64,000 nucleotides of DNA, from assembly GCA_016432545.1 (NCBI GenBank), contig CP066694.1:186001-250000 (forward strand), written 5' to 3'. The translations under genes were made by a program, and so were the position numbers. The stretch comes from an archaeon (GTDB taxonomy: Archaea > Thermoproteota > Nitrososphaeria > Nitrososphaerales > Gagatemarchaeaceae). Every line of letters begins with the position of its first letter. Position 1 is the first letter of the stretch. Below the pieces are notes generated by a model. That model made no database searches. It was not told the DNA's origin and was given only the letters and a program-made list of their open reading frames with translations. This document shows, piece after piece, positions 6,343 to 18,585 of this stretch.

Positions 6343-6960
6343 ATGACCTGGAAGAACAGGCGCGCTCTACTCAGGTCGCTTGCGGAGGGCTTGGTGAAGG
6401 CGGGGGCCCTGCAGTTCGAGCCTACTACGATGCCGGACGGAAAGGAGAGTTCGTACTACGTCAACCTAAAGGGAATATCCAGCTATCCTGGCCTGTACAG
6501 ACTGGTCGCGGAGGCGATCGGGGACCTGGTCACCAAGAAGGCCGGGCGCGTGGACGCTCTGTGCGGGACACCGATGACCGGGCTTGTGATCGCTTCACCC
6601 GTTGCGGTCTCTCTAAAACTTCCACTCATCTATGTCAGGACCTCCAAACAAGCTGGGGAGAAGGAGGTCGAGGGAGAGATAAGGCCGGACTGGACCGTCG
6701 TGCTTGTCGACAGCCTCTCCAGGTCAGGAAAGTCAATCCTCTCCTCGGCGAAGGCAATCGAGGACGAGGGCGGAGAGGTGAAGGACGCGGTCGTGCTGAT
6801 TGACAGGATGGAAGGGGCAAGGGAACGGCTAAGCAAGGCAGGCATCGCCCTGCACGCGGTCACCGACGTGATGGAGCTGGCTGACACCCTGGCTTCGATG
6901 GAGCTGATATCTCAGGACGACATGAAGGCGATCGTCCGGTCGGTCGGACGCCGTCAGTAG
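6343..6960 (+). CDS. pyrE: Orotate phosphoribosyltransferase
   Basis: This 205-residue protein is a type I phosphoribosyltransferase that joins orotate to PRPP to make OMP in pyrimidine synthesis. The N-terminal part (GALQFEP, SSYYVNLKGI) matches the OPRTase hood region. The PRPP loop is VDSLSRSGKS (about residues 120-130), with Ser-Lys replacing the usual Thr-Gly residues, a mild divergence. The ATG was chosen because a TATA box lies at the leaderless distance; upstream in-frame codons lie in the promoter. The last 7 bases overlap the convergent TBP gene. Confidence 0.9.
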   Translation: MTWKNRRALLRSLAEGLVKAGALQFEPTTMPDGKESSYYVNLKGISSYPGLYRLVAEAIGDLVTKKAGRVDALCGTPMTGLVIASPVAVSLKLPLIYVRTSKQAGEKEVEGEIRPDWTVVLVDSLSRSGKSILSSAKAIEDEGGEVKDAVVLIDRMEGARERLSKAGIALHAVTDVMELADTLASMELISQDDMKAIVRSVGRRQ

Positions 6961-7511
6961 ACCATCAGGTTCTTTTCTTCTAGGGTGACGTGGAGGTTGT
7001 TGACCGCTCTGTAGACTTCGCTCTCTTTCTTCGCGCCTGTGCAGACGAGCTTGCCCGACGCGAAAAGGAGTATGACCGTTTTGGGGTCGGCCATCCTGTG
7101 GATGAGCCCTGGAAACTGCTCGGGCTCGTACATCGACTTTGGCAGGGTCCTCGCGGCCTCTTCGAGGTGGACCTTCCCCCCGAGGCTTGCAGAGGCGACG
7201 ATGTTCTGGATCTCCACTACGGCTTCGTTCTTGATCGGGATCTTTCCCTTCCTGAGTTGGCGAACGACCTCCTGAACCGCCTTCCTCGCCTGCTCCTCAG
7301 ACTTTGCGCCCGTGCAGACCATCTTCCCAGAGCTGAAAATCAGGGTCGCTGTCTTGGGGTTCCTCAGCCTGAAGACGAGCCCCGGGAACTGGTCCGGGTG
7401 GTACTCGACCGTGACGAAGTTCTTGGTGATCAGGTTGAGGTCGACGGTTTGGTTGACTGACGCCGACGCGACCACATTTTCGATGCTTACGATGGCCTTG
7501 GTCTGAGGCAT
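6954..7511 (-). CDS. tbp: TATA-binding protein
   Basis: This 185-residue protein is the two-repeat saddle that binds TATA boxes and recruits TFB and RNA polymerase. The repeats are clear: each has an IENVVAS/IQNIVAS strand, the FPGL(V/I)xR motif (residues about 42 and 134) and the FxSGKxVCTGAK motif (residues about 58 and 150). Its own TATA-like box lies 25-33 bases before the ATG. It is convergent with pyrE. One TBP gene is seen here; the matching TFB gene is near 47 kb. Confidence 0.97.
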   Translation of the reverse strand: MPQTKAIVSIENVVASASVNQTVDLNLITKNFVTVEYHPDQFPGLVFRLRNPKTATLIFSSGKMVCTGAKSEEQARKAVQEVVRQLRKGKIPIKNEAVVEIQNIVASASLGGKVHLEEAARTLPKSMYEPEQFPGLIHRMADPKTVILLFASGKLVCTGAKKESEVYRAVNNLHVTLEEKNLMVY

Positions 7512-7535
7512 CTAGAAATTGCTCGTCAGCCGAGG

Positions 7536-7545
7536 CTATTTAAAG
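7536..7545 (-). promoter_or_regulatory. TATA box of tbp
   Basis: On the minus strand the sequence reads CTTTAAATAG, centred about 29 bases upstream of the tbp ATG, which indicates a leaderless tbp transcript. A second AT-rich stretch (GTATATAAGC on the plus strand) lies just beyond it at 7548-7557. Confidence 0.6.
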
Positions 7546-7602
7546 GGTATATAAGCAAACGGCCGGTTCTGGTAACTTGGCTGGGGATTACGCACTTCCA
7601 GA

Positions 7603-7899
7603 CTACTCCGAGTTCTCGGCGTCAACTGTCTGGGGATTATGGGTTGGGCCGAAGAAGGAGTAGACGACCAATGCCAGTCCGACTATCGCTGACGGAACGG
7701 CAGACACCATTAGGTCAGAAATCGGGTTGCGGCAGAGTATGAGGCCATGCGCAGACGCGCACACCAATTGATTGTTGTAAACGAAAGCCAGCCAAAAAAG
7801 GCTGATTCCGAGGAATACTAAACCACCTGCGAAGGCGAGCCTTCTCACTCTTCCGCTTCTTCCCTTGGAGGAAGTTCGTTCTGGATCATCGTCATCCAC
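7603..7899 (-). CDS. Small two-helix membrane protein, unknown
   Basis: This 98-residue protein has a charged N terminus (residues 1-22, rich in Asp, Ser and Arg), a hydrophobic helix (about 24-44), a short loop with two cysteines and a second helix (about 65-84). No family is recognised. It lies downstream of the signal peptidase gene on the same strand with a 19-base gap, so they may share an mRNA. Two other small membrane proteins lie nearby. Confidence 0.55.
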   Translation of the reverse strand: MDDDDPERTSSKGRSGRVRRLAFAGGLVFLGISLFWLAFVYNNQLVCASAHGLILCRNPISDLMVSAVPSAIVGLALVVYSFFGPTHNPQTVDAENSE

Positions 7900-7918
7900 T
7901 TGTCCCAGCTATGCGGGG

Positions 7919-8467
7919 TCAAGATGCCGTGGTCGAGTCCTTCGGGGGCGGCTCGGGACGTTCTTCAGGCTGCTCGCTGTCGGCTTCAGCCTTGCCCCTT
8001 CCTCCCAGCTCAGAGTAGAGCACCGCGATGAAGATCAGAGCCGCAAGGATGTAGTTGGCTCCGTACGGCAACGAAGCGAGCCGCTCAACGTAGGGGACAA
8101 CGAAGACGACCTTTCCGACAATGCAGTCTTGGGTGATCGGTCCTGTGGCGATCCTCGCGCTTGGGTCCTGGTCGGGCAACGGATTGTTGTCGCCCCTTGT
8201 AGTGAACCCATCAGGGCTGGACGCGACGACCCTATGAATCACGGATGAGCCGGTCGCCGAGCAAGGTGGGTCGTAGACGATTATGTCTCCCACATGGACA
8301 TCAGAGAAGGAGGCGTGCTCAAGCACGACCAGGTCGCCCTCCTCCAAGGTCGGAAGCATGCTCGTCCCGTCCACCCTCCTAGTGTAGGAGAGCAGCAGGA
8401 ATGAAAAGACAAGCAAGAAGACGACGAATCCCACGACGTAGACTGCGGTTCCTGCCTGGAACTTCAA
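7919..8467 (-). CDS. Signal peptidase I (S26B, archaeal/ER type)
   Basis: This 182-residue protein has an N-terminal membrane helix (about residues 9-28), the catalytic Ser motif SMLPTLEEGD (Ser near residue 35), the VIHRVV motif whose His replaces the bacterial Lys, the GDNN motif (near residue 92), and a C-terminal membrane helix. It removes signal peptides of secreted proteins on the outer face of the membrane, as Sec11 does. The C-terminal tail after the second helix is acidic and Pro-rich. Substrates in this window could include the binding protein at 13.5 kb. Confidence 0.9.
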   Translation of the reverse strand: MKFQAGTAVYVVGFVVFLLVFSFLLLSYTRRVDGTSMLPTLEEGDLVVLEHASFSDVHVGDIIVYDPPCSATGSSVIHRVVASSPDGFTTRGDNNPLPDQDPSARIATGPITQDCIVGKVVFVVPYVERLASLPYGANYILAALIFIAVLYSELGGRGKAEADSEQPEERPEPPPKDSTTAS

Positions 8468-8548
8468 CGTCGGGACGCCGGCCAGACCAGCGGTTAAACC
8501 CTTTTCGCGCGATGAGGGTTTTTATTGGCCGACCGGGGGTCGAGTACA

Positions 8549-8842
8549 TTGGCCAAGGCTGGGCTCAAGTTGCTCATCGGGGACGTCCTGATTCTTGTCG
8601 CGGGGTACCTGGTGACCAAGGACCTTCAGGCCCGCGTCGCATACGCGGCCGCGGAGAGATACTCGCCTTCGTTCTCGTACTCGATCCTCACAAAGTACTT
8701 TGACATGATCAGGAACTCGGTGACGCTCCAGAGTCCTCTGACCCTTGACTGGATTCAGGTCCTGGCGTTCGCTTTCATCATCGTGAACGGATGGTACGCA
8801 TACGGTTTCCTACGGGGTCGTTCTGTTCCAATGACAAAATAG
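8549..8842 (+). CDS. Small membrane protein, unknown
   Basis: This 97-residue protein has two hydrophobic helices: residues about 6-20 (LLIGDVLILVAGYLV) and about 72-90. The region between them is polar with several Tyr and Ser residues. The TTG at 8549 is preferred over the in-frame TTG at 8525 because a TATA-like stretch (GTTTTTATTG, 8517-8526) lies 23-32 bases before it. No family is recognised. It is divergent from the signal peptidase gene and convergent with the next membrane protein. Confidence 0.55.
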   Translation: MAKAGLKLLIGDVLILVAGYLVTKDLQARVAYAAAERYSPSFSYSILTKYFDMIRNSVTLQSPLTLDWIQVLAFAFIIVNGWYAYGFLRGRSVPMTK

Positions 8843-8857
8843 GGTCAGCCTGCCAGG

Positions 8858-9460
8858 CTAGGCCAAGCTCAGAGTCAACGCGCTCAACGGCTTCGCCCCT
8901 CCGGAGCTTGCTTCCTTCCTGGCGACCTCCTCCAGGGCGGCCCTCTTCTCCCAAGTCCGGAAGTACGAATATCCCAGCAGCCCGACCAACGCCACGAATA
9001 GCCCTTCTGACGTGTAGCCCCTTAGGAAGTAGTACCCTGACCAGTTCCCGTCCACGGCGATCACGAAGTGTGTCCTGTTCCCCGAGAAGACGTAGATTCC
9101 ATACGGCTGTGTAGACGGAGACACGAACGAGACCCTGACCAGGGGGCTGGAGAAGTTGTGTATGATCAAGATCGGTGTTCCTATGGTCGCGAGCCCGCCC
9201 TCGGCGGTTGAGAAGACCGACAGATAGAGGCTAGAAGGCGAGTACCCGGTTATCACTATCGTGACTCGAGTGCCTTGGTCGACCGGCGGGATGTAGTATC
9301 CGCTCAGAGTGGTGGACGAAGCTCCATACGGGGCGGTAGGCCCCTCGAGGGCCACGGTCTGCGGGGTCCTGACTACAGGCAGGATAAGCGTCGCCAGCGT
9401 GATCACAATCCCGGCAATGGCAACGACCTTTGAGCCCTGGGTCCGGAGTCGAGCGACCAA
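8858..9460 (-). CDS. Membrane protein with extracellular beta domain, unknown
   Basis: This 200-residue protein has an N-terminal hydrophobic segment (about residues 11-29), a Ser/Thr/Tyr-rich region of likely beta structure with several NxS/T sites (about 35-145), a second hydrophobic segment (about 152-166) and a short charged tail. The topology suggests an extracytoplasmic domain held by two helices. The TTG start has a TATA-like box (about 9484-9496) at leaderless distance. It is divergent from the peptide ABC transporter, but a functional link is not shown. Confidence 0.55.
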   Translation of the reverse strand: MVARLRTQGSKVVAIAGIVITLATLILPVVRTPQTVALEGPTAPYGASSTTLSGYYIPPVDQGTRVTIVITGYSPSSLYLSVFSTAEGGLATIGTPILIIHNFSSPLVRVSFVSPSTQPYGIYVFSGNRTHFVIAVDGNWSGYYFLRGYTSEGLFVALVGLLGYSYFRTWEKRAALEEVARKEASSGGAKPLSALTLSLA

Positions 9461-9550: not shown

Positions 9551-10522
9551 GTGGCGAGTCTTCTCACCTACTTGATACGCCGGGTCCTGTTCATGATTCC
9601 AGTCTTCCTCTCCGTCTCTATCATCACTTTCATCATAACCAACGCAGCCGGAGACCCGATCAAGCTGATCAGGCTCTCCTTCAAGACCCTGACCCCGGCC
9701 CAGCTTCAGCAGCTGATAGCATTCTATCACTTGAACGAGCCACTCTACGCGAGGTACTTCCAGTGGCTGGGCGAGTTCCTGACGGGCAACCTGGGGATTT
9801 CCCTCCAAGGAGGAACGGTGGCTGACAAGATCGTCCCCTGGATCGGGACGACGCTCGAGCTCCAGCTCCTCGCGCTCTTCCTCAGCCTTGGAATCGGAGT
9901 CCCGATCGGGATCTACTCCGCGAAGCACCAGTACTCAAAGTCAGACATAGCGGTCACCTCGACAGCGATCTTCGGCGTGTCTATGCCGACCTTCTGGGTC
10001 GGGATCATGCTGATCCTCATCTTCTCGGTGTACTTTCCGTGGCTCCCCGCCTTCGGTGCCGTCTCCCCCTACCCGCCCTACTGGTGGGGCAACTACCAGC
10101 TGGACGTCCTGGCCCACCTCATCCTTCCCGTACTCGTGCTCACCTTCGTCTCTGTCGCGACCATCGTCCGGCTCATCAGGGCCAACATGCTTGAAGTCCT
10201 GAGGCAGGACTATGTGCTCGCAGCCAGGGCGAGCGGGATCAAGGAGTCGACCATAATCTACAGGTACGCGCTGAAGAACGCCGTCACCCCGGTGATCACG
10301 ATCGTGGGCCTCTCCTTCGGGTTCCTCCTCGCTGGGGCTCCCGGGCTCGAGACGACCTTCACCTGGCCCGGCCTGGGCTACGCCTTCGTCCTCGCCGCCA
10401 CCGTCCTCGACCTCCCTGTCGTGCAGGGGATCACGATGATAATCACGCTGATAGTCCTCATCGCTAACCTGGGCACGGACCTCGCATACGCCTGGCTCGA
10501 CCCGAGAGTGAGACTCTCCTGA
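9551..10522 (+). CDS. Oligopeptide ABC transporter permease, DppB/OppB type
   Basis: This 323-residue protein has six membrane helices and the N-terminal LIRRVLFMIPVFLSVS segment typical of the first Dpp/Opp permease. The cytoplasmic coupling loop with ARASGIKES (about residue 226) contacts the ATPases. With the next three genes it forms the complete importer core for di- or oligopeptides. The GTG start is set by the promoter at leaderless distance. The substrate may instead be a sugar oligomer or nickel chelate, because this family is broad. Confidence 0.93.
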   Translation: MASLLTYLIRRVLFMIPVFLSVSIITFIITNAAGDPIKLIRLSFKTLTPAQLQQLIAFYHLNEPLYARYFQWLGEFLTGNLGISLQGGTVADKIVPWIGTTLELQLLALFLSLGIGVPIGIYSAKHQYSKSDIAVTSTAIFGVSMPTFWVGIMLILIFSVYFPWLPAFGAVSPYPPYWWGNYQLDVLAHLILPVLVLTFVSVATIVRLIRANMLEVLRQDYVLAARASGIKESTIIYRYALKNAVTPVITIVGLSFGFLLAGAPGLETTFTWPGLGYAFVLAATVLDLPVVQGITMIITLIVLIANLGTDLAYAWLDPRVRLS

Positions 10523-10554
10523 GCGGGGAGTCCAAGAACCCCCCAGCGCCTCCG

Positions 10555-11448
10555 GTGAAAGCCCACAAGCGAAGGGCCGCGGGCCAGTGGGCGGTCGCTT
10601 TCAGGAGGTTCAGGAAGAACAAGGCTGGCCTCGCCGGGTTAGCCATCGTCGGTTTCTTCGTCTTCCTGATGGTCTTCGGTTTCTTCCTCGCTCCTTACCC
10701 CGTGAGGGACTTCGGGTGCCTCTACCAGGGGTGCACGAACCTCCCCCCCTTCACGAACTGGGCCCACCCCCTCGGGACTGAGAACTCCGGGATCGACGTT
10801 TACAGCGAGATCCTCCACGGGACGCCGAACGACCTCTTCGTCGGCATAGGGGCCACAGTCATTTCGGTGGCCATAGGAGTCCTGGTCGGAAGCCTTGCCG
10901 GCTACCGGAGGGGCTTCTCCAGCGCCTTCCTCCTGGGGTTCACCCAGGTCTTCCTCACGCTGCCAGTCCTCGTGATCATCCTCCTCTTCGCGAGGGTCTT
11001 CGTGCTCCTGGTCGCGGGGGGCTTCGGGCTCCCGCTCATCACGCTCATCCTGGGAGTCTTCGGCTGGCCCACCATAGCCCTGGTCGCGAGGGGAGAGATT
11101 CTGAGGATTCGGGAGCTAGAGTTCGTGCAGGCCGCGCGTGCTCTCGGCGCGAGCAACACGAGGATCCTCTTCAGGCACGTCGTCCCGAACATGCTCTCGC
11201 CGATCATAGTCATCTCGTCACTCCTCATCGCCGGCAACATCCTGACGGAAGTCGTCATCAGCTTCCTCGGCTTCGGGGACCCGAACACCTCCACTTGGGG
11301 ACTCCTCCTTCAGGAAGGTTTCGCCTACATCAGGACCGAGTGGTGGGTCTCTCTTTTCCCGGGCTTGGCAGTGGTCTTCTGCGTCCTCGGCTTCAACCTG
11401 ATGGGGGACGGCCTCTCCGACGCGCTGAATCCTAGGTTGAGGGAATAG
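10555..11448 (+). CDS. Oligopeptide ABC transporter permease, DppC/OppC type
   Basis: This 297-residue second permease starts with the FRRFRKNKAGLAGL motif that marks DppC/OppC N termini, followed by six helices and the coupling loop with ARALGASN (about residue 198). It pairs with the DppB-type protein in the membrane. The GTG start lies 32 bases after the previous stop; there is no other in-frame start between them. An extracellular loop after helix 1 carries two cysteines that may form a disulfide. Confidence 0.93.
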   Translation: MKAHKRRAAGQWAVAFRRFRKNKAGLAGLAIVGFFVFLMVFGFFLAPYPVRDFGCLYQGCTNLPPFTNWAHPLGTENSGIDVYSEILHGTPNDLFVGIGATVISVAIGVLVGSLAGYRRGFSSAFLLGFTQVFLTLPVLVIILLFARVFVLLVAGGFGLPLITLILGVFGWPTIALVARGEILRIRELEFVQAARALGASNTRILFRHVVPNMLSPIIVISSLLIAGNILTEVVISFLGFGDPNTSTWGLLLQEGFAYIRTEWWVSLFPGLAVVFCVLGFNLMGDGLSDALNPRLRE

Positions 11449-11451
11449 AGC

Positions 11452-12447
11452 TTGGCAGGCCAGGAGATCCTACGCGTAGACGACCTGCACACGTACTTCT
11501 TCACCGAAGCAGGGGTCGTAAAAGCCGTGGACGGCGTCTCCTTCACCCTCAACGAGGACGAGCCACTCGGCCTCGTCGGAGAGTCCGGCTCCGGCAAGTC
11601 TGTCACCGCCCAGTCGATCCTTGGGATAGTCCCTCGCCCCGGCAAGGTCCTCTCGGGGCAGGTCATGCTCAGGGGCGAGGACCTCCTCCGCAAGAAGGAC
11701 AAAGAGATGCGCAAGGTGAGGGGTAAGAAGATCGGTGTCGTCTTCCAAGACCCCAACTCATCGCTCAACCCTCTCTTCACTGTAGGCAGGCAGCTCACGG
11801 ACGTCGTCAAGACACACTACGACATCTCCAACTCGCAGGCCTTCGAGAAGGGCGTGGGCCTGCTAAAGCTGGTCAGGATCCCCGAGCCCGAGACGAGGAT
11901 GACCCAGTATCCTCACGAGCTGAGCGGGGGGATGCGCCAGAGGGTCGCGATAGCAAGGGCGCTCGCCGGGGAGCCGGAGATACTCATAGCCGACGAGCCG
12001 ACCACCAACCTCGACGTCACCATCCAGGCCCAGGTCCTGGAGCTCCTGAAGTCGATACAGCGCGAGCTGAACATGGCACTGATAATGATAACCCACGACA
12101 TGGGAATCGTCGCGGAGATGACCGAGAAGGTCGTGGTCCTCTATGCCGGCAGGGTCGCGGAGGTCTCGCGCACCCGAGAGATCTTCTCGACGCCCAAGCA
12201 CCCGTACACTTCCGCGCTCCTGAGGGCAGTCCCGAGAGTCGACAGGACAGCGGCCCTCATGTCGATCCCTGGCAACATACCGAACCTGATCGAGCCGCCC
12301 ACCGGCTGCAGGTTCCACCCCAGGTGCAGGTACATGACCCAGCTCTGCGTGGACAAGGTCCCTCCTCTCGAGGACATCCTCGAGCACAGGAAGGTTTCCT
12401 GCCACCACTGGAAGGACCTTGCCCTCGAAAAGGAGGCGGCCGTCTGA
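11452..12447 (+). CDS. Peptide ABC transporter ATPase, DppD/OppD type
   Basis: This 331-residue ATPase has Walker A GESGSGKS (about residues 43-50), the signature LSGGMRQR, Walker B ILIADEPTTNLD and the C-terminal oligopeptide-transporter domain with GCRFHPRCRYM and further cysteines (about residues 284-302). In DppD proteins those cysteines can hold an iron-sulfur cluster. It powers import with the DppF partner. The TTG start is three bases after the DppC stop, and the stop overlaps the next start (TGATG). Confidence 0.94.
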   Translation: MAGQEILRVDDLHTYFFTEAGVVKAVDGVSFTLNEDEPLGLVGESGSGKSVTAQSILGIVPRPGKVLSGQVMLRGEDLLRKKDKEMRKVRGKKIGVVFQDPNSSLNPLFTVGRQLTDVVKTHYDISNSQAFEKGVGLLKLVRIPEPETRMTQYPHELSGGMRQRVAIARALAGEPEILIADEPTTNLDVTIQAQVLELLKSIQRELNMALIMITHDMGIVAEMTEKVVVLYAGRVAEVSRTREIFSTPKHPYTSALLRAVPRVDRTAALMSIPGNIPNLIEPPTGCRFHPRCRYMTQLCVDKVPPLEDILEHRKVSCHHWKDLALEKEAAV

Positions 12448-13442
12448 TGGCCGACCCGCTGATCAGAGTAGAGAACCTCGTAAAGTACTTCCCAGTCTAC
12501 GAGAGGGGCATCCTGCTCAGGAGGAAGGTCGGGGACGTCCACGCGGTCGACGGCATAGACCTGACCATAGGCAAGGGGGAGACCCTGGGACTGGTCGGCG
12601 AAAGCGGGTGCGGAAAGACCACAGCGGGCAAGGTCATCCTCTCGCTCGAGGAGCCCGACTCGGGCAAGGTCTACTTCGAGGGCAAGGACGTCTACGAAAC
12701 CTTCGCGAAGGGGACCACCGAGGACAGGAAGTACATCAGACGCAACATGCAGATGGTCTTCCAGAACCCATACGGGTCGCTCGACCCGAGGATGACAGTC
12801 TTCGACATCGTCTCAGAGCCCTTCGCGATCCACAAGAACATCCCCCAGGGGCAGTGGGAGGACAACGTCTACCGCCTCCTGAAGATGGTCGGGCTGGAGG
12901 AGTACCACGCCGAGAGGTACCCGCACGAGTTCTCTGGGGGGCAAAGGCAGCGCATCTCGATAGCGAGGGCCCTGGCCACAGACCCCAAGTTCGTGATCGC
13001 GGACGAGCCAGTCTCCTCCCTCGACGTCTCGGTCAGGGCACAGGTCCTCAACCTCCTCGAGGAGCTCCAAGCCAGAGCCGGCATTTCGTTCCTCTACATC
13101 TCCCACGACCTCAGCTCGGTGAGGCAGATCTCCCAGCACGTGGCGGTGATGTACCTCGGGGAGGTCTTCGAGTACGCCCCCACGGACAGGGTCTTCACAA
13201 AGCCCCTCAACCCCTACACAATCGCCCTCCTCTCGGCCGTGCCCGTGCCCGACCCTGAGAAGAAGGTCAAGAGGATCATCCTTCCGGGCGACGTGCCCAG
13301 CCCGGTCAACCCGCCGGGGGGTTGCAGGTTCCACCCGAGATGCCCATACGCGACCGACATCTGCAGTACTTCGAAGCCGGCCCTGAGGGAGCTCGAACCG
13401 GGCCACCTCGTCGCCTGCCACCACGCTGAGAAGTTCCTGTAA
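12447..13442 (+). CDS. Peptide ABC transporter ATPase, DppF/OppF type
   Basis: This 331-residue second ATPase has Walker A GESGCGKTT (about residues 51-59), signature FSGGQRQR, Walker B FVIADEPVSSLD and the C-terminal motif GCRFHPRCPYA. It forms the heterodimeric motor with the preceding protein. The ATG overlaps the previous stop, so the pair is translationally coupled. The open frame extends upstream within the previous gene, but those codons belong to that gene. Confidence 0.94.
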   Translation: MADPLIRVENLVKYFPVYERGILLRRKVGDVHAVDGIDLTIGKGETLGLVGESGCGKTTAGKVILSLEEPDSGKVYFEGKDVYETFAKGTTEDRKYIRRNMQMVFQNPYGSLDPRMTVFDIVSEPFAIHKNIPQGQWEDNVYRLLKMVGLEEYHAERYPHEFSGGQRQRISIARALATDPKFVIADEPVSSLDVSVRAQVLNLLEELQARAGISFLYISHDLSSVRQISQHVAVMYLGEVFEYAPTDRVFTKPLNPYTIALLSAVPVPDPEKKVKRIILPGDVPSPVNPPGGCRFHPRCPYATDICSTSKPALRELEPGHLVACHHAEKFL

Positions 13443-13497: not shown

Positions 13498-16209
13498 TTG
13501 CACTCTTCTTTGATTGAAGAGACAGCTACAGGTGCAGCTTTAGCATCAATAGGATTTCTGCTCATCTTCTCTGCGCTGCCATTGAGCGTCAGCGCGGCGA
13601 CGACTTCGGGGACCTTCTTCACCGTGACGGTGATAGCCCCGACCTCGAACCCGCTTAGGCGCCAGTGGGCAGCAATCATCACCAACAACCTCAAGCAAAT
13701 CAACATCGACGCACGTCTGATCTACGTGAGCTTCGGAGTAATGTCCGGGCTTACGTTTGGCTGCTCTGCCGACAATTGCGGCAAGACTTACGATCAAGGC
13801 GGGTTCGACGTCCACTTCGTCGGGTACGGAGGCGGAACTCCGCTCCCAGACTTTGGGACTCAGAACCAAGTCACTTACAGGAGCCTGACTGCCGCAGACT
13901 ACGCGCCGACAGGGGCCAACTACTACTTCTACCACAACGACACCTACAATCAGCTCTCAGTCCAGTACAACACCGAGTTCAACGCGACGGCAAGGATCTC
14001 AATCGCCCAACAGATGGTTAGGATCGTTTCGCAGGACAAGCCGGACATGCCCATCTTCTACGGGGTGGACGTCTACGGCATCAAGAACTACCTCAGCCCA
14101 TGGGGTACTAACCAGGCTGAGGGAGCGACTACTGCGAACCGGGACTTCCAGCACTGGGGCGTAAGCACGGGCACTGAGATCAACATCGCCGAGACGGGCG
14201 ACATCAACTCGGTCAACCAGTGGGTCAACGGGCCTGCCAACACCTACTACGACGCATACCTGTACAACCCGACCGCCGCCTCCCTCGAGGAGGTAGACGC
14301 AAGGACGCTCGGGTACTTCAACGCGCTCGCCACGTCGATCAAGTCCTCCTCGGACCACCTGACGTGGGACGTCTCCTTCAGAGCTCACAGCTTCCAGGAC
14401 GGAGTCCCGGTAACGTCCGATGACTACCTGTTCTCCATCATGGGAAGCATCGACACCGACGTGGGCTATGTCGGCGGCGGCACGCTCCAGAGCCTCCTCG
14501 GAGACTATGGACACGGCGGCGCGTGCAACTGCAGCCAGGTACAGTTCACCTATCTCAACGGCACTTCAGACTACGTGGTCGGCGGGACCTACTCGCACGG
14601 AACAGCTCCGGGCGGGTTCACCGCTACTTCCGTCTGGACGGCCGTCAACGCCACATCGTTCAGGTTCACCCTGACTGACCCATACCTCTTCGCTGACCCG
14701 ATCCTCACTGGGATTGCCGCGGCCCCGATGCACGTCTTCGAGGAGCTGCCGTTCGCCACTTGGTCGAACAGCTGCTACGCGACACTCCACACCACTCCAT
14801 GCCCATACGTCTACAACCTTCCAGGCCAGGCTAACCACGGGGGTAACGGCTCCGCGGTCGCATATGGGCCGGTCGGTGACGGGCCGTACTTCTATCACGG
14901 CTACGACACCGTGACTGGAACGGGCACGCTGGTGAAGTGGGGAGGCTATTGGAACGCGTCAGGACTACAGGGTCTCGGGCTCTTCGGCGCCCAGACGATC
15001 CACGTGGTCCACATCCTGAACAAGGACAACGCGCTCGCAGCCTTTGCCAACGGTCAGGTCAACTTCCTCGACGCCAACTACCAGCTCAACCCAACAGACT
15101 TCCCGGTACTGACCTCTAACGGTGGCACCGGCACTCAGAGGGCCAGCCCAGGCGCGGGCTTCCAGATGATGGCCGTCCAGAACACCCACCCAATCTTGGG
15201 CACGGGAACTGCGACGCCTCTCGGAATCTCCGACCCGAGCAGGGCCGCGGAAGCGGCAAGGGACGTCAGGGCCGCTCTGAGCCACGCCATCCCCAGGCAG
15301 TACATCATCGACAACCTCAACCAGGGAATCGGGACGATAGGAATCACCGAGTTCTGCTCGTGCTTCGGGTTCGCATACCCGTCGGACGTCCAGCCGGACT
15401 CCTTCGACCTCACCCTCTCTGCGCAGCTCCTTGCCAAGGCAGGGTACACTACGCAGAGCGGAGGAGTTACCCCGATCCAACCACCGACAATCTCGTGCCA
15501 AGCTCCGGCCGGTTCTCCCGGCGGGGCGGTCTCAATCCCATCATTCCTCTCTGGCAACACCCTAGCCCTGTCGGGGACCTTCGCGGTCGTCCCGGCCAAG
15601 GGAGCGGGCACTGGCGGGTTCTACGCGACCCTTCAGCAGAGCACGGACAGTGGGACTACCTGGACACCGGTCGCCATGACCCTGACGTCGACTGGAGGAT
15701 ACTACTCCTTCAGCTACACGCCCACGGTCAGCGGCGCTGTCTGGTACAGGGTCTTCTTCACGGGCGTGAGCTACAACGCCTTGCAGGCGTTCGCTCCGTC
15801 CTCGCCATCCTTCCCTGAGGGCTACACGTGGCCCCAGTCCAACAGCACATCCGCCGGCACATCACAGAACGGGCTTCCGCAGCTCAACAGCACCGACGTG
15901 CAGTACAGCGCGGTCACTACGCTGACCGTCGGCTCTCTTGCACAGGTGGTTCAGGATGCGCTATCGAGCCTCGCAGCGTCGGACACTGTCGCCATTCACG
16001 ACGCAGTGTGCGGCCTCGCAGACTCGACCAACTCGGCAATCTCGGACTTGACAACCTCGGTCAACACAAGGCTAGACGCGCTCGCGGCGAAGTCTGACAG
16101 CCTCAACAACAACCTCACCAACCTTTCGTACATAGCATACGCTGCACTTGCAGTAGCAATAATTTTGGGCCTCGTAGCCATAGCGCTTTCCAGGCGGAAA
16201 GCGAGCTAG
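13498..16209 (+). CDS. Surface-anchored ABC solute-binding protein (SBP family 5-like), lobes apparently permuted
   Basis: This 903-residue protein has an N-terminal signal segment (about residues 14-34) and a C-terminal membrane helix (about 876-898) after a likely coiled-coil stalk (about 815-875). It should capture ligand outside the cell for the ABC importer encoded just upstream. Standard family 5 proteins run N-lobe then C-lobe. Here residues 38-220, with the FDV...PDF...YxNxxYNxL pattern, look like the usual C-terminal portion. They are followed by the usual N-terminal portion (LTWDVSFRAHSFQDGVPVTSDDY, about 286-310), the GDGPY segment (about 460) and the AARDVRAALSHAI segment (about 587). 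An Ig-like domain (about 655-770) follows. Confidence 0.75.
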   Translation: MHSSLIEETATGAALASIGFLLIFSALPLSVSAATTSGTFFTVTVIAPTSNPLRRQWAAIITNNLKQINIDARLIYVSFGVMSGLTFGCSADNCGKTYDQGGFDVHFVGYGGGTPLPDFGTQNQVTYRSLTAADYAPTGANYYFYHNDTYNQLSVQYNTEFNATARISIAQQMVRIVSQDKPDMPIFYGVDVYGIKNYLSPWGTNQAEGATTANRDFQHWGVSTGTEINIAETGDINSVNQWVNGPANTYYDAYLYNPTAASLEEVDARTLGYFNALATSIKSSSDHLTWDVSFRAHSFQDGVPVTSDDYLFSIMGSIDTDVGYVGGGTLQSLLGDYGHGGACNCSQVQFTYLNGTSDYVVGGTYSHGTAPGGFTATSVWTAVNATSFRFTLTDPYLFADPILTGIAAAPMHVFEELPFATWSNSCYATLHTTPCPYVYNLPGQANHGGNGSAVAYGPVGDGPYFYHGYDTVTGTGTLVKWGGYWNASGLQGLGLFGAQTIHVVHILNKDNALAAFANGQVNFLDANYQLNPTDFPVLTSNGGTGTQRASPGAGFQMMAVQNTHPILGTGTATPLGISDPSRAAEAARDVRAALSHAIPRQYIIDNLNQGIGTIGITEFCSCFGFAYPSDVQPDSFDLTLSAQLLAKAGYTTQSGGVTPIQPPTISCQAPAGSPGGAVSIPSFLSGNTLALSGTFAVVPAKGAGTGGFYATLQQSTDSGTTWTPVAMTLTSTGGYYSFSYTPTVSGAVWYRVFFTGVSYNALQAFAPSSPSFPEGYTWPQSNSTSAGTSQNGLPQLNSTDVQYSAVTTLTVGSLAQVVQDALSSLAASDTVAIHDAVCGLADSTNSAISDLTTSVNTRLDALAAKSDSLNNNLTNLSYIAYAALAVAIILGLVAIALSRRKAS

Positions 16210-18000: not shown

Positions 18001-18585
18001 GTGTTCTCAGGCCCGAGGGTTCCCAGCGAAAGGGCTCGGGGGTACATCGAGGGCACGTTCTCAATCCCTCCGATGCTCCAGGTCGAAGCGGAGATAGCCT
18101 CAACTTTGGGCCGTACCGAATCAGTCTTCGACTCCAGGGTCGTGCGGGCGATCGCTGCCTGCAGGACCGGGACTCCTCCTGAGCTCGTCGCGAGGCACCT
18201 GCACTGGTCAGAGTTCGAGTCGTTCGGGGCGGACCTGTTGAAAGCCAGCGGGTATGGGGTGGAACAGGACGTGGTCCTGAAAAACCCGAGGGCCCAGATA
18301 GACATCCTCGGTCGTTCGGGCAGGATCGCGGTGGCGGTGGACTGCAAGCGATGGTCGAAGAGCGCAGCCCCGGGAGTGGCGATGAAGGTGGCAAGGGCCC
18401 AGGGCGAGAGGGCGGTGCTTCTGAGGAGTGCGAGGCCCTACTTGGAGCCCATAGTGGCTGTAATTCTAATGATTTCGCTGGAGGCGCCTTTGTTGATGGA
18501 GGGCGCCGCGGTGGTTCCGATCCACGCATTCCGCGACTTCCTCGAGAGCCTCGACTCGCTGGTCCCCGAGCTCACCGCATACTGA
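18001..18585 (+). CDS. PD-(D/E)XK nuclease-like (Mrr/restriction endonuclease-like) protein
   Basis: This 194-residue protein carries a core typical of the restriction-endonuclease fold: LHWSEFESFGADLLKASGYGV (about residues 66-87), then IDILG and VDCKRW (about 99-116). The Asp, the acidic residue and the Lys fit the D...(D/E)xK catalytic set, with Asp-Cys-Lys at the last position. Such proteins cut or bind DNA in repair or defence. No methylase or helicase partner is adjacent, so a complete restriction system is not evident. The GTG start has no clear promoter of its own. Confidence 0.65.
   Translation: MFSGPRVPSERARGYIEGTFSIPPMLQVEAEIASTLGRTESVFDSRVVRAIAACRTGTPPELVARHLHWSEFESFGADLLKASGYGVEQDVVLKNPRAQIDILGRSGRIAVAVDCKRWSKSAAPGVAMKVARAQGERAVLLRSARPYLEPIVAVILMISLEAPLLMEGAAVVPIHAFRDFLESLDSLVPELTAY

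Follow-up and report, generated by a model that had tools for sequence, protein, structure and literature searches.

Permuted segment order in an archaeal family-5 substrate-binding protein points to circular permutation, a probably recurrent change in its family

The window analysed here is a 64,000-nucleotide stretch of contig CP066694.1 (positions 186,001 to 250,000, forward strand) from an archaeon of the phylum Thermoproteota, order Nitrososphaerales. It carries a complete oppBCDF operon, of which the last gene, downstream of the transporter genes at 9551-13442, encodes a substrate-binding protein (SBP) (Table 1). By gathering score this SBP belongs to family 5 (PF00496, cluster C): the profile matches in two stretches against a cut-off of 32.4 bits, and PF00496 is the sole family matched in a Pfam search of the protein. 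Judged by hydropathy alone, the protein bears signs of export, with a hydrophobic N-terminal segment and a C-terminal transmembrane (TM) segment. An earlier note on the sequence of the window had described the C-terminal region as an Ig-like domain, a coiled-coil stalk and a membrane anchor. The anchor is borne out by hydropathy, and the Ig-like domain and coiled coil remain impressions from the sequence to which no Pfam family corresponds. Farther along the window, positions 18001-18585 (+) encode a small protein in which an Mrr-type restriction endonuclease domain is recognised (PF04471, 27.8 bits).

Table 1. Genes of the opp operon and segments of the SBP, in window coordinates
Feature	Position	Strand	Evidence or remark
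OppB-type permease	9551..10522	+	PF00528 134.7 bits, PF19300 25.9 bits
OppC-type permease	10555..11448	+	PF00528 98.8 bits, OppC_N PF12911 47.1 bits
OppD-type ATPase	11452..12447	+	ABC_tran 102.2 bits, oligo_HPY 70.1 bits
OppF-type ATPase	12414..13442 (stretch tested; ORF opens at 12324)	+	ABC_tran 117.6 bits, oligo_HPY 76.9 bits
Putatively circularly permuted family-5 SBP (type A cut), 903 aa	13498..16209	+	PF00496 113.2 bits; TTG start
Signal segment, residues 1-35	13498..13602	+	N-terminal hydrophobic segment, hydropathy 2.1; cleavage inferred from sequence
Usual C-terminal SBP part, placed first: second half of lobe II and end of lobe I, residues 37-206 = profile 324-475	13606..14115	+	
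Junction of old C-terminus to old N-terminal strand, residues 207-246	14116..14235	+	Unbroken path over profile junction
Usual N-terminal and middle SBP part, to KAGY helix of lobe II, residues 247-654 = profile 19-326	14236..15459	+	
Beta-rich, probably Ig-like domain, residues 663-790	15484..15867	+	Sequence impression; no Pfam match; kept in three homologues
Stalk, likely coiled coil, residues 791-876	15868..16125	+	Heptad-like sequence, by eye
C-terminal TM anchor, then basic tail	16126..16188	+	Hydropathy 2.8; conserved IAYxAxAVAIILG block

The order of segments within the SBP module departs from that of standard family members. In a genome-wide search, PF00496 positions 288-360 fell at G000:C1:199618-199869, upstream of positions 5-288 at 200323-201480, within one 903-aa frame; the latter positions match residues ∼276-659 of the protein. 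We compared the protein with a standard-order profile, built first from SBPs of relatives and then, more broadly, from 37 standard SBPs, of which 484 core positions (p) were kept. This profile matches twice, p324-475 ahead of p19-326, and with these two matches every segment of the family-5 fold is found. The standard N-to-C order is not found; the C-terminal part stands first, as the earlier note had read it. Segment order, although usual, lies outside the family's curated definition, and we therefore file the protein as a permuted member of the PF00496 family. Against a doubled profile, in which two copies are joined head to tail (2 × 484), a single path leads from residue 37 to residue 654 over p324-810, exactly one turn, and scores 146 bits versus 95 bits for the best single stretch. 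For eight bacterial controls of standard order, scored in the same way, doubling brought zero gain, and for archaeal standard SBPs in the sample listed it brought at most 9 bits. Taken alone, the match of the C-part is modest (39-43 bits, or 24 bits with Pfam). The one-turn path, the complementary ends and the retention of one cut in both archaea and bacteria (see below) together support the earlier proposal that the SBP is circularly permuted.

The same profiles bear on a different reading, in which residues 38-220 would be an unrelated extra domain ahead of an ordinary SBP whose complete C-lobe would follow residue 650. SBP-linked extra domains exist, and a long region of 250 aa does follow residue 655. 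However, residues 37-206 match the SBP profile and are joined to the rest in one path, and standard-order profiles, with which a C-lobe was looked for after residue 650, give no SBP-like match after residue 655. Moreover, small relatives leave no room for such a lobe, since their chains reach the TM segment 10 aa after the AGY helix that closes the SBP module (L109) or, in the 579-aa L240, end at about AGY. The extra domain is thereby refuted, and we reject it as extremely improbable.

The alignments place the cut inside lobe II, after the AGY helix. Of the permuted lobes described earlier, the order stands, but the break does not lie at the boundary between lobes. The SBP module closes with the RAALSHAI..LLAKAGY segment of lobe II and opens with the strand that would normally come after it. 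Relative to AppA (PDB 1xoc), residues 588-655 of the window protein correspond to AppA 281-349 and residues 38-78 align weakly with AppA 357-397. L246, a compact bacterial homologue of 573 aa, aligns over longer stretches, with residues 227-554 matching AppA 22-345 (125 bits) and residues 62-194 matching AppA 369-496 (32 bits). The old termini are bridged by a short junction of about 10-40 residues, which in L246 amounts to ∼32 residues (194 to 227; AppA 496 and 22). A bridge of about 10-40 residues could favour a domain-swapped dimer, in which each lobe II is completed by a partner molecule and the fold does not close within one chain; in other proteins, domain swapping can follow permutation. 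The ∼32-residue bridge of L246 is, however, comparable to the natural chain at that place in the AppA alignment, which makes closure within one molecule the simplest arrangement and a swapped dimer very unlikely.

SBPs with this cut, which we call type A, extend well beyond the window. Three homologues with 87, 64 and 48% identity have the full architecture of the window SBP, and matches to the type A profile come from 8 genera and 3 families of the order (13 of 300 genomes) and, at the level of the phylum, from 28 of 398 genomes. The ends are complementary: with few exceptions, complete members begin at p324-328 and terminate at p325-327. A tblastn search of plasmids with the compact member L109 returned single-piece matches in permuted order from Salipiger, Neorhizobium and several haloarchaea. 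The doubled profile identified eight of these plasmid regions and three others as type A without exception, and the eight bacterial control proteins as standard. With L246 as query, 32 plasmid records matched over at least 80% of its length; viral contigs scanned with the type A profile gave no match. The search for homologues of the same segment order that had been suggested earlier thus succeeded, both within the order and phylum and on plasmids of haloarchaea and Alphaproteobacteria: the same rearrangement is present in other archaea and in bacteria.

The sequences also show the mark of selection. Between the window SBP and L008, an 87% identical protein from a Thaumarchaeota/Nitrososphaerota groundwater metagenome-assembled genome, dN/dS is 0.093 overall, 0.041 in the C-part and 0.05 (0.053) over the junction (residues 195-235), these ratios being approximate because dS is near saturation. 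The window belongs to one assembled contig, where an assembly error, frameshift or chimera might have put gene pieces in the wrong order. The identical order recurs in dozens of genomes that were assembled separately, as well as in finished isolate plasmids. Together with the purifying selection over the junction and the intact frames, this refutes the explanation, which we reject as vanishingly improbable.

Type A SBPs form a single clade (SH-aLRT 100), except for one contig-cut type A fragment, L108, that our script mislabelled as type B. In the best unconstrained tree the bacterial and haloarchaeal members fall in two places, and a single type A clade is not rejected (AU p = 0.28). The neighbouring transporter genes follow a similar pattern. 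At least three of oppBCDF lie within 6.5 kb at 24 of the 26 type A loci with neighbourhood sequence, the exceptions being L147, at a contig start, and L149; this count excludes L158, labelled ‘SBP_A’, a piece of a type B gene truncated at the edge of a slice. The OppB proteins of type A loci, that of the window included, fall into one clade (SH-aLRT 100), which holds solely permeases that adjoin type A permuted SBPs. Together, the SBP and OppB clades give the pattern that a long-lived SBP–permease pair produces.

The ligand-binding site differs from that of peptide-binding relatives. In OppA and DppA, the Asp of the PDYxDPD segment binds the amino group of the peptide. In the window clade this lobe II segment of standard SBPs reads GGGTPLPDF, and the conserved Asp of OppA/DppA peptide binders is not found there, which makes binding of ordinary peptides by the window SBP doubtful. 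On haloarchaeal and alphaproteobacterial plasmids, the type A operons L243, L245, L247 and L253 adjoin creatininase, hydantoinase/oxoprolinase, M20/M28/M81 peptidase or racemase genes. These neighbours hint at amide or ureido compounds as putative ligands of bacterial and haloarchaeal type A systems, and are to be taken as a lead only. The altered lobe II segment, together with the large stalk and the Ig-like region that members of the window's order carry, would also suit a surface sensor or adhesin that keeps the permuted SBP fold and has no transport role. The tight, conserved linkage to complete oppBCDF genes and the single co-inherited permease clade argue against such a role, as does the retention of the operon by stalkless bacterial members, and we assign it very little probability.

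We consider it highly probable that the window protein is the surface SBP of the oppBCDF-type ABC importer encoded upstream, probably with an ordinary two-lobe fold on a circularly permuted chain. An AlphaFold model of residues 36-660, made with one homologue, reached a pLDDT of 26.3 for want of alignment depth and was discarded as unusable; the fold is therefore drawn from homology, which points to the two-lobe, three-domain architecture of family 5. No solved chain in permuted order occurs among the matches listed by a sequence search. The old C-terminus would be fused to the old N-terminal strand, and the new ends would lie in lobe II, in the loop that leads from the (K/L)LAxAGY helix to the following beta strand. 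The protein would act like OppA and AppA, closing on its ligand outside the membrane and handing it to OppB and OppC, with OppD and OppF hydrolysing ATP for import. Its C-terminal spacer, stalk and membrane helix would hold it to the membrane at the newly opened end in lobe II, whereas tethered standard SBPs are held at an old chain end. The most likely origin of the permutation is an in-frame tandem duplication after which the outer parts were lost; duplication, fusion and truncation is an accepted route to circular permutation (PMC2213659). No tandem-fused intermediate was found.

Type A is one of several cuts in the family. Type B proteins are cut at p190/191, after the NPDYW strand, and the type B profile matches in 205 of 300 genomes of the phylum, or about two thirds (E ≤ 1e-20; most matches span the whole length collinearly, and the weaker ones are partial). 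In the genome to which the window belongs, each of the four family-5 SBPs found is permuted, one of type A and three of type B, and a genome-wide profile search detected no standard-order family-5 SBP there. The three type B genes lie at L038:4157-6610 and 6738-8990 and at L039:5377-7848 (G000:C1 ∼718-723 kb and ∼745-748 kb). Type B SBPs occupy at least three separate places in both the SBP and the OppB trees, and a single origin is unlikely; L002, the second gene of L038, and L163, which our script labelled standard, are incomplete matches inside type B clades.

Types C and D have one protein behind each. L220 (L220:3763-5802, 680 aa) is cut at p233/234, with a doubled-profile score of 431 versus 227 bits. 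It is N-terminally anchored, contains a small beta-like domain, lies beside oppBCDF and is 41% identical to its nearest standard relative. L214 (L214:586-2898), cut at p∼408, is 60% identical to the type B protein L223 (L223:6017-8248) in swapped blocks (107-531 = 319-736 and 544-768 = 84-308), and the pair thus aligns as a re-permutation within one clade. Tree backbones are weak, which leaves the number of origins uncertain. The trees do not show the root either, and we treat standard order as ancestral since it is commoner. On balance, we regard circular permutation as a likely recurrent evolutionary mode of family-5 SBPs. It would comprise at least four distinct cuts with several independent origins, a renewed permutation inside one clade, and a permuted lineage that Thermoproteota, haloarchaea and Alphaproteobacteria share, each with its own transporter genes. 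Separately, two ORFs of more than 2000 aa (L071:2-6550 and L239:3941-10117) contain a single standard-order family-5 SBP within a far larger surface-like protein.

A role for the membrane anchor in fixing the permutation had been suggested earlier, on the idea that the anchor leaves the SBP from a different face. Among complete archaeal type A proteins of the phylum, most combine a hydrophobic N-terminal segment with a C-terminal TM segment. Most archaeal members have a stalk-like segment similar to that of the window protein, and in archaeal anchored members the anchor is attached at the new cut. In L109 (622 aa) the TM segment begins within ∼10 residues of AGY, and the window protein, with its Ig-like domain and stalk, is the opposite extreme. 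The suggestion thus holds for where the anchor sits in these archaeal members, but fails as a general reason. Bacterial and haloarchaeal type A proteins have a Tat- or lipoprotein-like N-terminus (by eye), stop at or soon after the cut and have no anchor, and the permuted SBPs of types C and D are anchored N-terminally. Anchor placement therefore cannot be the general cause of permutation, and we reject it as such. New chain ends may tune the tethering of the SBP or its closure on the permease.

OppA/DppA-type SBPs are among the best-studied transport proteins and are read as having a fixed order; here, several cuts are found, one of them conserved in both archaea and bacteria and accompanied by its own transporter. 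Permuted SBPs are broken into fragments by profile searches, and annotation and domain counts miss them as a result. A search of the open full-text literature, with subscription papers outside its scope, found no published description of naturally permuted SBPs. Natural cut sites would show at which places the chain of an SBP can be broken with transport preserved, and they bear on folding, on the geometry of tether and cleft and on biosensor design. The L214/L223 pair, 60% identical and differently permuted, is a natural experiment.

Among solved structures, AppA of Bacillus subtilis, a family-5, cluster C SBP, shares all fold segments with the type A protein L246, as judged by sequence. The order differs, with the equivalent of AppA 369-496 first in type A and the cut at AppA ∼345-369, and the archaeal type A form bears a C-terminal stalk and TM segment, unlike AppA. 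PDB 7fi3, an archaeal family-5 SBP of standard order that we take to be an OppA of Thermococcus type, is the closest solved relative of type B (L050 399-691 = 17-309 and 121-314 = 401-603); it is not the closest relative of the window SBP and is absent among the type A profile matches. Engineered circularly permuted periplasmic binding proteins, made as biosensors, show that SBP folds tolerate new termini. Those permutants are man-made, whereas the SBPs described here are natural, conserved and linked to transporters. Natural permutations by tandem duplication include the saposins/swaposins and the adenine-N6 DNA methyltransferases, both cited in PMC2213659. Type A SBPs resemble these in their one full turn, complementary ends, fused old termini and new termini in a loop, but differ in the SBP fold, in the four cut positions within one SBP family and in having a 60% identical pair with different permutations.
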